Assembly: GCA_011525385.1 (NCBI GenBank)
Contig: WTGF01000021.1
Location: 1 to 59,719, forward strand
Length of the DNA: 59,719 nucleotides
Direction of reading: 5' to 3'
From: Chloroflexota bacterium
GTDB taxonomy: Bacteria > Chloroflexota > Anaerolineae > Aggregatilineales > Phototrophicaceae
The notes beneath the pieces were generated by a model. It was not told where the DNA came from. It saw only the letters and a program-made list of their open reading frames with translations, and ran no database searches. Of the stretch, positions 17,464 through 58,871 are shown piece after piece. The first letter of the stretch is position 1; each line of letters begins with the position of its first letter. Both the position numbers and the translations under genes were made by a program.

Positions 17464-17742
17464 TTATCCCCGTAAAATGATCAACGCAATCACGTTGATA
17501 ATCGCGACGACTACAACAGTTATGCCGACAGACATTTTGATGCTGTCCTTTAAGCCAGTTAGGTCAGTCTGCAATCCAGTCATGTCGGTTCGCAGCCGGC
17601 TCATATCCGATCTGAGTTCGTTGATGCTCTTTTCGAATTCCAGACGGAGCTGCGCGAGATCCGCCTTCGTCGCCAGGTGCTGATACGTCGCTTCTAATGC
17701 CGAGAGTCTACCTTCGTGCTCCATCGATTGCTCCGCTGCCAT
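17464..17742 (-). CDS. Short coiled-coil protein with C-terminal membrane helix
   Basis: 92 residues. Residues 10-70 form a coiled coil with ATKADLAQLRLEF and then 7- and 11-residue repeats (LRTDMTGLQTDLTGLKD). The C-terminus is a single hydrophobic helix (about 71-90, VGITVVVVAIINVIALIIL), so it is tail-anchored. The first half, ALEATYQHLATK, closely matches the protein at 30253-30906, so the two are paralogues. It resembles the DUF1640/CCDC90-type tail-anchored coiled coils. Function unknown. The gaps on both sides (17221-17463 and 17743-17951) show no gene. Confidence 0.65.
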   Translation of the reverse strand: MAAEQSMEHEGRLSALEATYQHLATKADLAQLRLEFEKSINELRSDMSRLRTDMTGLQTDLTGLKDSIKMSVGITVVVVAIINVIALIILRG

Positions 17743-42398: not shown

Positions 42399-42977
42399 TT
42401 ATAAGATGCCCCAGGGTTGAATGAAGTCTTCGCGCTCGACGCCCAAGGCGTCGGCGACGCGGTTAATATAGTTGAAGTAAGCGACTACTTGCGTGGCGTC
42501 GTGAATGGCCACATCGTCCAGACCGGCTTGGCGCAGGCGCCCGACGTCCGCCGCCGTCATCCCCGTTGGATGCGAGGTCAGTTTCTCGGCATAGGCGCAT
42601 AGCGCGCTATCGATGGTGTTCAGCCGCGCCCTCCGCCAATCGCGCGCGATCGCGTGTACAAAGGCATCCGCTTCAGCTTCGCTTTCGAATCCCTTGACCT
42701 CGGCACGGAGGTCATGCGCGTGTGACTGAATTCAGTAGACGCAGTGGTTAGCGACGCTGACGACCACCGCCAGCATCTCCCGCTGTTGCCGCGAAAGGGG
42801 CGATTCGGCGAACATGGTCGCGCCGTACATCTCCATGGAGGCTTTCATGACGCGCCCATTCAAGGACATGATCTGAACGATATTCCAGACGCGCCCGGCG
42901 CGCTTGACTGCTTTTTCCAGTTCTTTTTTCACTAGACCGGTAGCGCGGTCGAGGGTGATTTGCTTGATGTAGGGCAT
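42399..42977 (-). CDS. Selenocysteine-containing AhpD-like peroxidase-related protein (CxxU)
   Basis: 192 residues when the in-frame UGA (42734-42732) is read as selenocysteine. Start ATG 42977 has GAGGTG (42988-42983) 5 nt away. The AhpD/carboxymuconolactone-decarboxylase core is clear: MYGATMFAESPLSRQQREML then VVVSVANHC-VY-U-IQSH, which gives C79-x-x-U82-x-x-x-H86 in place of CxxC-xxx-H. After the UGA the frame runs on for 110 codons (AEADAFVHAIARDW, SALCAYAEKLTSHPT, VAYFNYINRVADALGV) to TAA at 42401-42399, as in full-length relatives (about 180-195). It would be a peroxidase or thiol oxidoreductase. A SECIS-like hairpin follows the UGA and tRNA-Sec is at 56758. The MmeI-like gene ends 12 nt upstream. 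The alternative, a sequencing error or nonsense mutation, is weakly favoured by nothing I see. Confidence 0.88.
42695..42714 (-). promoter_or_regulatory. Predicted bacterial SECIS element
   Basis: In the transcript, UGACCUC (42714-42708) pairs perfectly with GAGGUCA (42701-42695) around the loop CGUGCC (42707-42702). The loop begins 24 nt after the UGA (inside the usual 16-37 nt) and its second base is G, meeting the published rule of a G in the first two loop positions. Some outer pairs (C42716-G42693, C42718-G42691) extend the stem with mismatches. SelB would bind this in the coding region. Confidence 0.75.
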
Positions 42978-42989
42978 GGTCACACCTCG

Positions 42990-45863
42990 CTAGAACAGGT
43001 CGGGTGGTTGGATGCAGCCGTCGCTGACAAGCTCGGCCGGGTCGGGATAATCGGGCGGGATGCCAGGCGCTGTGACGTCTTCACCAGCGTCGATTCTAGC
43101 GGCAACTTCAAGGTTAAGAGCGAGAAGTTGTTCGAGGATATCGGCGTCTGGATCGAAATCGTAGGCGGCGAGCACGGCTTGGTCGAGGGCGTCGTGGAGA
43201 TCGCGCAAGGGATTGCTGCCCGGTTCTTCCAAAGTGCGGTACATGTCGCGCAAGGTTAACGACTCGCTGTTTCCCATTTCGCCGCGGCGATATTCATGCA
43301 AAGAGCGTCCCGCATCGGCAACTGCTTTCGCTCGTTCGGCTGTTGGACGTTGCGGAAACGGGAAGGTATCAAAGACACTGTGGGAAGTGTAGCGCCAATC
43401 TGATTTCAGTGTGGATGCCTTTTCGACAAACCACTGCCAGTGGGCATTGGATTGCAGGATGCCAAAGGTGTAATCGTCCTCAAACGCAAAGACTTGAATT
43501 GTAACATCCGGGCGGATTCGGGCGGAAACGAAGTCAAAAATCGGACGTTTTGTAACCTGTGAACAGCCGATATATCGTTTGATGCGGCCAAGCGCTTCAA
43601 GCATATCATCCCGCCCGTATGACAGCTTCCACCACTGTCGTAAAAAGTTGCGATGATGATGGTTGAGTTTCGCTTTCGGATTAGCTTGACGCGCTTTTTC
43701 GTTTTTCGCTTGCTCTTCCTTTGCCTTCGCCTTTCGAACAGGCAAAACATGTTGTCTGATGTGTCGATACGCCGCGCGAAAACTCTGCGTCTCAATCAAG
43801 TCATATCCGCTAAGGTCAAGAACGTACCGACTGGGCTGAGAGTTGAAGCGAGCCACCAAGTCGCGTCCGATTAGAAACGGAAGCAATACCCTGCGCGATA
43901 TATCATCACGTTTGATGAGGTTAATAGCTTGTTCAGGCGTAAACATGAATTTATCGTTACCTGGGATCTGTCCCTGAAAAACTCGTTTTGGCTTCTGATT
44001 TACGGTCAGTTGCAATGCGTTGCTTACATCGGTCTTGTCAGACAGTGAACTGTTTATTCTCTGCAATTCAACAGTCCGGAACATATATTCCTTCGCTTCA
44101 TTTTCTCCTTCAAAGAAGTGCAGTCGTTTCGGTTCCATCGGTGGTTCGCCTTTTGCCCAATTGGCGATAGACACATGGACATTCGCTTCACCCGACCAAG
44201 GCAAAGACGAAACCGCATCGTAAATCACACCACCGTTATCTAGAATGTAATCAAGACTGCCGATTCGCGAATAGTTTTGGCGTATGGTGTTTGTGCCCAC
44301 CAAGCCTGCTCGGGCGCCAGGTTTCATATTTTTGTGCGTCTTGTTGAACCAATATACACACTGATCGGCATTTCCAGGCACATCAGAGAAAGTATCGCGA
44401 ATGCGATTGATGTATTCAACACTGCGTTCTTGTTTTAGCAGCTTCGCGCCCAAATAAGGCGGATTGCCAATACAGGCATCAAATTCTACCCAGTCGTTGA
44501 AAAGCGCGTCTTCGACTTTGATGTTCTCGTCGAGGTCATCCAACGGCAACGGGTTTTCATCAGTGCTAAACTCGTCCACCGCCAGCTTCTTGGCGATCAT
44601 CAGCGATACCTTCGCCAACTCAACCGCGAATTCATTGATGTCGTAGCCGTGAAACTGCTTCGCTGTCACTCGCCGCGGCACCTGCGCGAGGTCGCCGCCG
44701 AGTTCGACGATTCGTTCGCGCAGCTCAGCTTCCAGCGCTTTCATTTCTCGGTAGGCGACGTAGAGGAAATTGCCTGAGCCGCAAGCCGGGTCCAAAACCA
44801 CATAATTACACAGGTCGTCATATAGTCTAAGCGCATCCGGCAGGGCATTTACTGAGTCGATATCATTTCGCCAAGGCTCAGCGATGACGGGATCGACGAT
44901 TCGCTTGATATCAAGTTCAGTTGTATAATGCGCGCCTTCCCGGTGTCGTTCCAGTTTGTCCATGCTGTATTCGAATATGCTGCCGAATATGGAGGGACGA
45001 ATTCTTGACCAGTCTTCCCTACACGCGCTCTCAAGTCGGTGAAGTTGTGGACCGCTAAGGAAAACGGGATGGACTTCCTGAAAGATTCCGCCATTGAAGT
45101 AGTCCACTTGGCCAAAGCGCCCGGCGCGGCGGGCATGCTTTGGATAGTTCATCATCGTAAACAGCAATGCCATCAGGTCATGTGAATTATCTGTGGCATT
45201 TTTCCGCTGACGGCTATCTTCGACGATATTGAGCAGAGTGGCATGCGGCAATAGACCAACATCTTCGGCAAAAAGCGCGATCATGCACTGCAAAGTAAAA
45301 CGCAGCGCAATTCGCTTGTCTACAGCTTCTTCCAAAGAGCGGAACAATTCCGCCAACTGAAATGCCGCGTCTATTGTCACTTCTACCCGATTGTTCTTGA
45401 ACACAGGGGCTCGATGCTCACCTGGTGTCAGGAATGAAAGCGCGTTGTGCCGCTCACTCGCCAATTCGTCGATCCTGACAATGTCAACAGGATCATAAAA
45501 TTGGGTATGGAAGTCGAAAACCCAGATTTCGTCGAAGTCGCACAAGGCCGCATATCGGGGTCTGTCGGGCAGGCTCTTCCAGTATTCTTCCAATTGCACA
45601 TAATGTTTCTTGAGGTCTTCACCGCGCTTTTTCATTTCGATGATAACGCGATTGGGCACAACATAGTCGGCAAATGAAACTGTGGTTTTGCCGTTTCGCC
45701 GGCGACGGATGCGCGTTTCGTATTGTCCAGCTTCGAGCGCGCCCTTATGACCAAAGGCGCGCATCAGGTGATCGAGGAATAGCTGCGCCTCGCTCTTTTC
45801 GTCGCCTTTTATGTTATCTCGCCACCATTCGATGAAATCGCGCAGCGATTGTTCTATCGACAT
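42990..45863 (-). CDS. MmeI-like type IIL restriction-modification enzyme
   Basis: A 957-residue fused nuclease-methyltransferase. The nuclease is PD-ExK: D66 in FADYVV, then E76-M-K78 in IIEMKKRG, followed by the family-typical LKKHYVQLEEYWKSLPDRPRYAALCDF. The gamma-class methyltransferase has motif I DPACGSGNFLY (about 358) and motif IV GNPPYLG (about 466), so it makes N6-methyladenine. The C-terminal ~250 residues with WKLSYGRDDMLEALGRIKRYIGCSQVTKRP are the target-recognition part. AGGAGG supports the start. Slightly AT-rich versus neighbours, so likely acquired. The selenoprotein gene follows 12 nt after its stop. Confidence 0.9.
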   Translation of the reverse strand: MSIEQSLRDFIEWWRDNIKGDEKSEAQLFLDHLMRAFGHKGALEAGQYETRIRRRRNGKTTVSFADYVVPNRVIIEMKKRGEDLKKHYVQLEEYWKSLPDRPRYAALCDFDEIWVFDFHTQFYDPVDIVRIDELASERHNALSFLTPGEHRAPVFKNNRVEVTIDAAFQLAELFRSLEEAVDKRIALRFTLQCMIALFAEDVGLLPHATLLNIVEDSRQRKNATDNSHDLMALLFTMMNYPKHARRAGRFGQVDYFNGGIFQEVHPVFLSGPQLHRLESACREDWSRIRPSIFGSIFEYSMDKLERHREGAHYTTELDIKRIVDPVIAEPWRNDIDSVNALPDALRLYDDLCNYVVLDPACGSGNFLYVAYREMKALEAELRERIVELGGDLAQVPRRVTAKQFHGYDINEFAVELAKVSLMIAKKLAVDEFSTDENPLPLDDLDENIKVEDALFNDWVEFDACIGNPPYLGAKLLKQERSVEYINRIRDTFSDVPGNADQCVYWFNKTHKNMKPGARAGLVGTNTIRQNYSRIGSLDYILDNGGVIYDAVSSLPWSGEANVHVSIANWAKGEPPMEPKRLHFFEGENEAKEYMFRTVELQRINSSLSDKTDVSNALQLTVNQKPKRVFQGQIPGNDKFMFTPEQAINLIKRDDISRRVLLPFLIGRDLVARFNSQPSRYVLDLSGYDLIETQSFRAAYRHIRQHVLPVRKAKAKEEQAKNEKARQANPKAKLNHHHRNFLRQWWKLSYGRDDMLEALGRIKRYIGCSQVTKRPIFDFVSARIRPDVTIQVFAFEDDYTFGILQSNAHWQWFVEKASTLKSDWRYTSHSVFDTFPFPQRPTAERAKAVADAGRSLHEYRRGEMGNSESLTLRDMYRTLEEPGSNPLRDLHDALDQAVLAAYDFDPDADILEQLLALNLEVAARIDAGEDVTAPGIPPDYPDPAELVSDGCIQPPDLF

Positions 45864-56757: not shown

Positions 56758-56853
56758 GGGAGTGCATGTGTCCCGGTGGATGCCCCGGTCTTCAAAACCG
56801 GTGATCGGTTGCGCCTAGCAGGCGATGGTGGGTTCGACTCCCATGCGCTCCCG
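56758..56853 (+). tRNA. selC: tRNA-Sec (anticodon UCA)
   Basis: 96 nt without encoded CCA. Acceptor stem GGGAGTGC (56758-56765) pairs with GCGCTCCC (56845-56852), 8 bp with one G-U, one longer than usual tRNAs. The anticodon arm is CCGGT-CTTCAAA-ACCGG with UCA at 56792-56794. The long variable arm has CGCCT-AGC-AGGCG (56812-56824). The T arm is GTGGG-TTCGACT-CCCAT (56828-56844), 5 bp, giving the bacterial 8+5 layout. G at 56853 is the discriminator, then TTTTCTT. It carries selenocysteine for UGA decoding via SelB. The selenoprotein at 42399 is a client. selA, selB and selD are not in this window. Confidence 0.95.
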
Positions 56854-56945: not shown

Positions 56946-58871
56946 ATGATGGCCGAGAATTATCGAACATTGGATATTATAGTTTGGTCAGTGGAGGAAT
57001 TGATTAACGCCTCCTCAAAGCCAGCGCGAGGCAATAATGTGGTCACCATTCCTGACTTTCAGCGCCGACTGGTGTGGAGCAAGAAAAAGCAGGGGGAATT
57101 AATCAACTCTATCCGAATGGGGTATCCATTTGGCTCGATTATGCTTTATGGAGATGCGAAAAAAACGCAAGCTAGTGAAGACAACAAAAAATATTACAGC
57201 TTGATTGACGGCTTGCAGAGGACACACGCATTAAGAACTTTCATCAAGAATCAGAACAGCTTTTATGCAAAAGACAATGTACCGGAAGAGACTGTCAACC
57301 TAGTAGCGACCGTGCTTGGCCGTGCGAACAAGAGCGGCAAAGCGCGTGTTCGTCAAAGCATTGTGAAGTGGGTGAATGGCGTCGCCAGCTTTGACGCTAA
57401 AGACGGCTGGGGCTCAACCGGGCTGTTAGCTGCCGTAATCTGTGATGTGTTGCATTTCCAACCCGATTCGCAGGCATTCACCATGGAATTCGCAAAGTTA
57501 AGTATGGATTCCCAATTCCAGCAGACTTTGGGAGCGTTTCTGGACATGGCAAGTAGCGAAGCTCGCTCTGTGCTTAACGCAAAAGTCCCGGTAATGATAT
57601 ATGAAGGCGAGCCGAAGCACGTGCCAAAGGTCTTCTCACTGCTTAATTCTAAAGGAACGCCTCTGAACAAGTACGAGATTTTGGCGGCTCAATGGGTGAA
57701 TGAACGCCGTCCAATCGAAAATCATGACATTATTGATGCGATATGGATGAAAAACCAAGCTGTCGAAGATCAGGGCTTTATTTTGGATGTCGTTGAAAAA
57801 GCGCCTGACGAAGCAACAAGAAAAACGCGCGAATATTCCCTTTACGATTATCTGTTTGGGCTTGGACATATCTTGCCCGGACTATTCCCCCGCCTATTTA
57901 AGGATGCCAAAAACGACCGGCCAAACGCGGATAGCTTCAATCTTGTCACTTCCTGCTTTGGCTTGCATTTATCACAGATGGGGACCTTACCCGATAAGCT
58001 AGTAGATATTGACCTTTCGACCCTAGAGAATTGTCTCTTGCAGTCATGCCGATTCGTTGACAATCAGCTAAAGCCTATACTGGCAGCCAAACAATTAGGA
58101 AGAAGCAAAGCCCCGATCTATCATACACAGCTTCTGATTGTTGCAATGATTGCCACAGCTTTCCAGGCGCGTTTTGGGGTGAGGGATTTGACCGAGAATC
58201 CCCAGTGGAAAGATGATCGGGAAAAACTAAAGAAAACCATCCCAATGTTCTATCTTTACGAGATTCTGCAGGATGCCTGGCGAGGTTCTGGTGACACTAG
58301 ATTATTTAATCGAGTCAAGAATATGTTTTACCTCAACCAGTCACCACCTACTGATATCGTATGGAATCAAGTCTTGGACTATTGGTATGACAATGTCCAG
58401 ATAAACTATGAACACGACAAAAGACGCAGCCGTCACGTCTTTGAAAATCGCACAGAGTATTTGTTTCTTCGATATCTTTTCGTCCGCCAACTGCAACAAA
58501 CCGAAAACTTCCATATTGAACATATCATGCCGATTTCATATCTGCAGCAGAATATGGCGGATGACGAAACGTGGCCCATTAATACCATCGGCAACCTTGC
58601 CTTGATGGAACGAGCAGGCGAACTGAAAAACAATACAGTCCCGTACACTCTGATGCTTTGGCAAAAACGCCAACTTGATGAAATCACGGCAGACCAATTC
58701 AATTACCAACTACGTGAATATACTGAGCAGTTGATGTGCCCGGCAAGAATCATGCCTGAATCTCTAAGCAAGCAAATATTCAGAGAATTCTTGAAGGAGC
58801 GCTTCGAACTTCTGAAATCGGAATTCCTCCGCGTCTGGCGCGACCACATCCCAGCCGACCCGCAGACCTAA
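56946..58871 (+). CDS. DUF262/DUF1524 (GmrSD-like) nuclease
   Basis: 641 residues. The N-terminal DUF262 (GmrS-like, NTPase/ParB-type) domain has IPDFQRRLVWS (35-45) and the DGQQR-like motif IDGLQR (87-92). The C-terminal DUF1524 (GmrD-like) HNH nuclease has IEHIMP (H526) and NTIGNLALME (N550). GmrSD-type enzymes are type IV systems that cut modified phage DNA. The gene is AT-rich compared with both neighbours and starts 93 nt past selC, a common landing site for islands. No phage integrase is seen. Converges with the TPR gene with a 4-nt overlap. Confidence 0.85.
   Translation: MMAENYRTLDIIVWSVEELINASSKPARGNNVVTIPDFQRRLVWSKKKQGELINSIRMGYPFGSIMLYGDAKKTQASEDNKKYYSLIDGLQRTHALRTFIKNQNSFYAKDNVPEETVNLVATVLGRANKSGKARVRQSIVKWVNGVASFDAKDGWGSTGLLAAVICDVLHFQPDSQAFTMEFAKLSMDSQFQQTLGAFLDMASSEARSVLNAKVPVMIYEGEPKHVPKVFSLLNSKGTPLNKYEILAAQWVNERRPIENHDIIDAIWMKNQAVEDQGFILDVVEKAPDEATRKTREYSLYDYLFGLGHILPGLFPRLFKDAKNDRPNADSFNLVTSCFGLHLSQMGTLPDKLVDIDLSTLENCLLQSCRFVDNQLKPILAAKQLGRSKAPIYHTQLLIVAMIATAFQARFGVRDLTENPQWKDDREKLKKTIPMFYLYEILQDAWRGSGDTRLFNRVKNMFYLNQSPPTDIVWNQVLDYWYDNVQINYEHDKRRSRHVFENRTEYLFLRYLFVRQLQQTENFHIEHIMPISYLQQNMADDETWPINTIGNLALMERAGELKNNTVPYTLMLWQKRQLDEITADQFNYQLREYTEQLMCPARIMPESLSKQIFREFLKERFELLKSEFLRVWRDHIPADPQT

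Follow-up and report, generated by a model that had tools for sequence, protein, structure and literature searches.

A predicted gene on the minus strand of a Chloroflexota contig (42399..42977) is best explained as encoding a full-length, 192-residue AhpD-like protein in which an in-frame UGA, codon 82, is read as selenocysteine (Sec), with peroxide reduction as the predicted reaction at Sec82; we put the probability of this reading at about 0.86. The contig (WTGF01000021.1 of assembly GCA_011525385.1) was analyzed over its stretch of 59,719 nucleotides, which we refer to as the window. The observed support lies in the reading frame, the conservation of the UGA, its Cys counterpart in stop-free homologs, the Sec machinery genes of the genome, and a constrained hairpin behind the UGA.

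The frame runs from an ATG at 42977, immediately preceded by a Shine-Dalgarno-like GAGGTG, to a TAA ending at 42399, and contains a single in-frame TGA (42732..42734, minus strand), after which 110 codons of family sequence follow before the TAA. Re-reading the frame thus bears out the earlier note, which had proposed from the letters alone that family-like sequence continues for 110 codons beyond the stop. The note had also placed the UGA on the second Cys of a CxxC-xxx-H motif, and the position is exact: in C79-V-Y-U82-I-Q-S-H86, the UGA occupies the second redox position, while the Cys79 codon (42741..42743, minus strand), whose column is nearly invariant in an alignment of 29 sequences, specifies the predicted resolving cysteine of the CxxU motif. 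As expected of a standard annotation, ordinary ORF calling returns a truncated product at this locus, namely only an 83-aa ORF with a GTG start at 42983.

The read-through protein is assigned to TIGR01926 with 147.5 bits (cut-off 81.8), its residues 2-183 aligning to positions 1-176 of 178. It matches PF02627 with 48.8 bits; the N-terminal part alone scores 30.6 bits against this family, and the C-terminal part alone matched no Pfam family. Two related models stay below their cut-offs: AhpD sensu stricto (TIGR00777) with 22.6 bits against 191.95, over residues 57-108 and model positions 108–157, and AhpD_rel_CFYUT (NF041238) with 67.3 bits against 175. The latter has a related core and, judging by its name, a CxYU motif, but it is a 357-position model of which the window protein partially matches only positions 213-337. 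The active site pattern E-x(11)-C-x-x-C/U-x-x-x-H is present (E67, C79, U82 and H86), and among 29 sequences chosen from 121, E67, Y81 and H86 are invariant, and C79 nearly so. The structure model (29 sequences out of 121; mean pLDDT 96.2, pTM 0.92) confidently predicts an AhpD fold. The top matches in the PDB are titled AhpD-like, antioxidant-defense or peroxidase-related: the closest solved fold is the AhpD-like protein of D. radiodurans (6k40; TM 0.85/0.87, 41% identity, sequence E 4.4e-33), which is a Cys-x-x-Cys form as opposed to the CxxU of the window protein, followed by 3c1l, 2oyo, 2pfx and 2prr.

In the accessible text of PMC3141380, five-residue proton relays are given for PA0269 of P. 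aeruginosa (Glu36, Cys48, Tyr50, Cys51, His55) and for M. tuberculosis AhpD (Glu118, Cys130, His132, Cys133, His137). Glu67, Cys79, Tyr81, Sec82 and His86 share the spacing of both, which puts Sec82 where the M. tuberculosis enzyme has Cys133. The residue ahead of the second redox position is Tyr in PA0269, as in the window protein, and not His; compared with both proteins, the window protein has a predicted Sec in place of the second Cys. M. tuberculosis AhpD (1gu9) is distant in sequence (profile E 0.04).

A scan of genome contigs yielded 48 related loci, in 47 of which the codon at residue 82 could be placed; the remaining one (L057) ends before codon 82 and was left out of the count. TGA stands at this codon in 46 of the 47, across separate assemblies. 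The sole exception, L058, reads CCG in a match starting near a contig edge, where the sequence resembles what we take to be a sequencing adapter. These loci are mostly from Chloroflexota, with protein identities of 46-94% over the matched stretches spanning the UGA; by record title, others belong to Calditrichota (L048), Gemmatimonadota (L049, L055, L056), Planctomycetota (L050, L052, L054) and Actinomycetota (L053), such that UGA members are found in four phyla besides Chloroflexota. Within a Chloroflexota clade, the predicted Sec form is present throughout the sampled members. Because the same TGA recurs in separate assemblies, whose records are titled as five phyla, we regard it as very unlikely that the UGA stems from an error in sequencing or assembly, or from a nonsense mutation that has recently turned a Cys-type AhpD gene into a pseudogene, even though the window comes from an assembly of 131 contigs.

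When 400 genomes of the same phylum were searched, 158 gave matches, and among the 31 matches at E<=1e-20 (hand count), 23 contain one TGA and eight none. The codon at the Sec column was read in 32 loci, L060–L091, drawn from the phylum and including three of the window's own genome (L060–L062, with L062 as the window gene): it is TGA in 20 and TGC or TGT in 12. All 12 stop-free loci thus have a Cys codon at this column, in agreement with the expectation of the earlier note, and two of these 12 are weak yardsticks, namely L061, a distant paralog under the family cut-off, and L091, which lacks the first Cys. The own-genome paralog L060 (contig C25), 39% identical to the window protein, has a TGA at the same column. 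A tree of the 66 Sec-type and 12 Cys-type rows requires five label changes; we claim no direction for the change between Sec and Cys, since the tree lacks an established root and has long branches joining one another.

The protein database mirrors this picture in the way its entries were called. It returned 376 matches; the best 120 of these divide into 33 that span the column, with 17 Trp, nine Cys, two Gly, one Arg, one Leu and three gaps, and 87 that cover only the C-terminal part, of which 60 have residue 83 as their first position. Gene callers have therefore split the relatives at the same point. The 60 starts at residue 83, together with a start-like codon after the UGA in many relatives, are what one would see if the UGA were a true stop and the halves were separate proteins, the second beginning just past it. 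However, the next codon in the window gene is ATT, the 12 stop-free loci encode single chains with Cys at the column, and the structure model shows a single helical chain, confident over its whole length, which leaves a two-protein arrangement scarcely credible. Likewise, Trp (17 of 33) and Gly (two of 33) in the spanning proteins could be taken to mean that the UGA is decoded as Trp, Cys or Gly, through a code change or near-cognate suppression; we infer instead that they are products of other code tables applied in gene calling, while the single Arg and the single Leu have no explanation. With Cys at the column in the stop-free homologs, a complete Sec machinery in the genome, and a hairpin that exceeds shuffled expectation in the UGA genes but not in the Cys genes, such decoding has a very small chance of being correct. 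The nearest Cys form among the matches listed, P0012, is 58% identical. Two other relatives among the matches listed, P0020 and P0025, have Cys at the Sec column, while their first Cys is replaced by Thr (STRYC and QTRYC), giving a one-Cys active site.

For insertion of Sec at the UGA, the genome is fully equipped. A tRNA-Sec gene with anticodon TCA was found on the plus strand (56758..56853) both by ARAGORN and with RF01852 (73.6 bits, gathering score 47); at 13.8 kb from the selenoprotein gene, it lies where the earlier note, which had estimated 14 kb, had seen it. The presence of selA, selB and selD, whose absence the note had named as refuting, was also confirmed: all three are over cut-off in the window's assembly, with 559.1 (267.9), 322.6 (242.25) and 376.9 bits (125), respectively, and the selD gene itself (L010, contig C100) likewise contains a UGA, within a CAGU motif. 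We further tested 30 genomes for selA, 19 with the UGA form at E<=1e-20 and 11 for comparison. It is over cut-off in all 19 of the former and in eight of the latter (the exceptions being G083, G146 and G226); another comparison genome, G254, also has weaker UGA matches. As these eight comparison genomes and 321 of the 400 genomes in the phylum sample are also selA-positive, the co-occurrence is consistent with Sec insertion but a weak test of it. The Rfam model for tRNA-Sec is over cut-off in 25 of the 30 genomes, and since this is also the case in five of 14 control genomes, we did not use its presence in other genomes as a test.

Bacterial SECIS elements are hairpins that follow right after the UGA and carry a G in a small apical loop, as described in the accessible text of PMC1088965. 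The window gene has a SECIS-like hairpin of this kind (42695..42714, minus strand; apical loop 42702-42707), (U)GACCUC-CGUGCC-GAGGUC(A), whose 7-bp form and 6-bp core begin at nt 18 and nt 19 after the UGA, respectively, with the loop at nt 25-30. The earlier note had a hairpin satisfying the SECIS rules begin within 17 nt of the UGA. This distance is right as the spacer ahead of the 7-bp stem, and the small apical loop with its G stands, reinforced by synonymous constraint; the folding energy taken alone, by contrast, is not unusual. In longer sequence contexts, its z-scores are -0.63, -1.10 and -0.74, for 48 nt it is -0.70, and only a 23-nt piece trimmed to the hairpin itself reaches -3.07. 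Across the UGA genes, the mean z is -0.72 at the hairpin versus -0.29 and -0.19 at control sites. With z-scores this near to those of controls, we rejected folding energy as sole evidence for a SECIS element, and the case consequently rests on conservation.

The signal that we consider stronger than covariation or energy is the constraint on synonymous codons. It was counted over codons +7 to +12 in 47 genes (the window gene and 46 others), which are not independent as many are close kin. The Leu codon in the hairpin is always CTC (47 of 47, compared with 31% in the rest of these genes), the Glu codon GAG in 45 of 45 (51% elsewhere in these genes), and the Asp codon GAC in 42 of 45 (55%, likewise); for Arg, CGT occurs 32 and CGG 15 times, and CGC in none of 47, despite its share of 61% elsewhere in the same genes. 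Among the loci with record titles other than Chloroflexota, both hairpin arms are intact in L048, L049, L050, L051 and L054, and not in L052, L053, L055 and L056. After near-copies had been thinned, leaving 26 of the 47 rows, 92.9% of the cells are paired, versus 25–49% in slid controls. Covariation is supportive but small: one core pair shows changes in both partners, a number matched by 120 of 500 shuffles, and so does one outer pair.

These results are complemented by a hairpin scan, which applied exact limits to the distance between UGA and hairpin and searched for stems of at least 5 bp with a G in the first two loop positions. A SECIS-type hairpin was found in 60 of 66 UGA genes, where synonymous shuffles lead one to expect 34.7, and in three of 12 Cys genes, where they lead one to expect 3.0; the pattern is loose, so that shuffles often reach it (up to 0.89 in single genes). 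By hand count, the scan detected the hairpin with its loop at nt 25 in 46 of the 66 UGA genes, while six of the 66 failed it. For the own-genome paralog L060, neither folding nor the scan gave a clear hairpin in either of the two placements considered here.

The second of these placements concerns the UGA genes without the 5' arm of the first hairpin, 16 of the 66, including L068, which was assigned by hand because its GATCTC has no matching 3' arm. Ten of these 16 can form at least 5 pairs round a 5-nt loop at nt 17–21 (CACGGAG-N5-CUCCGUG and kin; hand count), and L080 and L086 show a paired change from GGAG/CUCC to GCAG/CUGC. It is a tentative idea, with somewhat less than an even chance in our estimate, that the SECIS element changed its place within the coding sequence with Sec retained, its loop lying at nt 25 (codons DLRAEV) on one side of the tree and at nt 17 in more distant members. 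We present this as a reading that the data allow and not as a result, given that in some of the 16 rows the automatic scan chose other hairpins, that L060 is without a clear hairpin, and that the remaining 50 UGA rows fall on one side of a branch whose support (89/93) is under the starred level.

For the full-length Sec protein, a mechanism can be proposed by analogy with AhpD chemistry. SelB carrying Sec-tRNA would bind the hairpin just past the UGA, and Sec would be inserted at codon 82. Assisted by a Glu67-Tyr81-His86 relay, Sec82, which corresponds to Cys51 in PA0269 and to Cys133 of the M. tuberculosis enzyme, would attack the hydroperoxide; Cys79 would then resolve the intermediate by forming an Se-S bond with Sec82, which a thiol donor would reduce. 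A selenoprotein of the same fold could also have a physiological reaction other than peroxide reduction, for instance reductive dehalogenation as in the debrominase Bmp8. Bmp8 (6ohi_A) is detected with a profile E of 5e-05 and a fold TM of 0.69/0.71, and several close relatives are MAGs that, going by their isolate names, we presume to come from marine sponges, which we count in favor of this possibility. Yet Bmp8 is only 16% identical, and the fold search has AhpD-like, peroxidase-related, CMD-family or unnamed same-fold entries at all of its ranks 1-27. We thus consider a different reaction unlikely, and peroxide reduction at Sec82 remains our preferred assignment.

The genomic surroundings lie outside this mechanism. 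An MmeI-like type IIG restriction-modification gene (42990..45863, minus strand; identified by Pfam and by PADLOC as REase_MTase_IIG with 1129.7 bits) ends 12 nt upstream of the selenoprotein start. Of the 47 loci, counting the window, 12 were seen to have it immediately upstream, some of the others being cut by contig ends, and because of this count we dropped a functional link between the two genes. Among its 11 full-length copies, identity of the restriction-modification proteins does not track AhpD identity (r = 0.06, 55 pairs). In L011, L012 and L014, which are without the gene, homology to the window resumes 37 nt before the ATG, in the restriction gene's last codons, which suggests that it was lost there. 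Other neighbor clusters in the 47 loci (window included) are oligopeptide-transporter permeases (22 and 21 loci), an AraC/MGMT-type repair gene (21) and a VUT-type transporter (19). A second restriction-like gene, encoding a GmrSD-type protein (56946-58871, plus strand), begins 92 nt behind the tRNA-Sec gene. UGA-spanning frames with a redox-like motif number eight among the matches listed for the window, including the window gene and a frame at 42723 (+) that overlaps it in antisense. Short UGA-spanning frames with a Cys-Sec motif at 17681 (+) and 11036 (-), in gaps between ORFs, are probably due to chance.

The family as such is not new. The first report of AhpD-like selenoproteins came from the Sargasso Sea in 2005, with 27 members under COG2128 (PMC1088965), as the earlier note had rightly said of marine metagenomes, and the GOS survey of 2008 assigned 299 selenoproteins to 'AhpD-like 1' and 70 to 'AhpD-like 2' in ocean samples (PMC2398784). 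The accessible part of PMC13188914 lists 'AhpD-like protein, TIGR01926, CxxU', with MCB9421940.1 as example, separately from NF041238, which it equates with hypothetical protein 1 of the Sargasso Sea; PMC9312934 gives the identical example accession for its COG2128 CxxU entry. The window protein shares the family model, the CxxU motif and the SECIS-like hairpin past the UGA with this family (TIGR01926/COG2128), and no feature was found that would set it apart, the likeness being drawn through family model and motif, and to the Sargasso Sea and MCB9421940.1 proteins by their description. The novelty is accordingly modest. For Anaerolineae, Sec formate dehydrogenases are described (PMC4959059). 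The accessible parts of PMC13188914, PMC2398784, PMC1088965 and PMC9312934 name no Chloroflexota for the AhpD-like family, and neither AhpD nor Chloroflex occurs in the available passages of PMC12013277 (deep-Sep). A search of the open literature on selenoproteins gave, among the matches listed, no AhpD-like selenoprotein in Chloroflexota by title or abstract start. The lineage aspect may therefore be unprinted in the open literature, and the new details reported here are Sec throughout the sampled Chloroflexota clade, UGA members in four other phyla by record title, a second, UGA-bearing paralog, and possibly two SECIS placements in a single family.

While the finding opens no new class of system, the locus is a clean example of a gene split in two by automated annotation. 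Together with the Cys homologs and the possible alternative SECIS position, the 46 genes with a near-identical hairpin provide material for testing what SelB needs. If the relocation were true, the family would be a direct test case for the tolerance of SelB and for the evolution of SECIS relocation.
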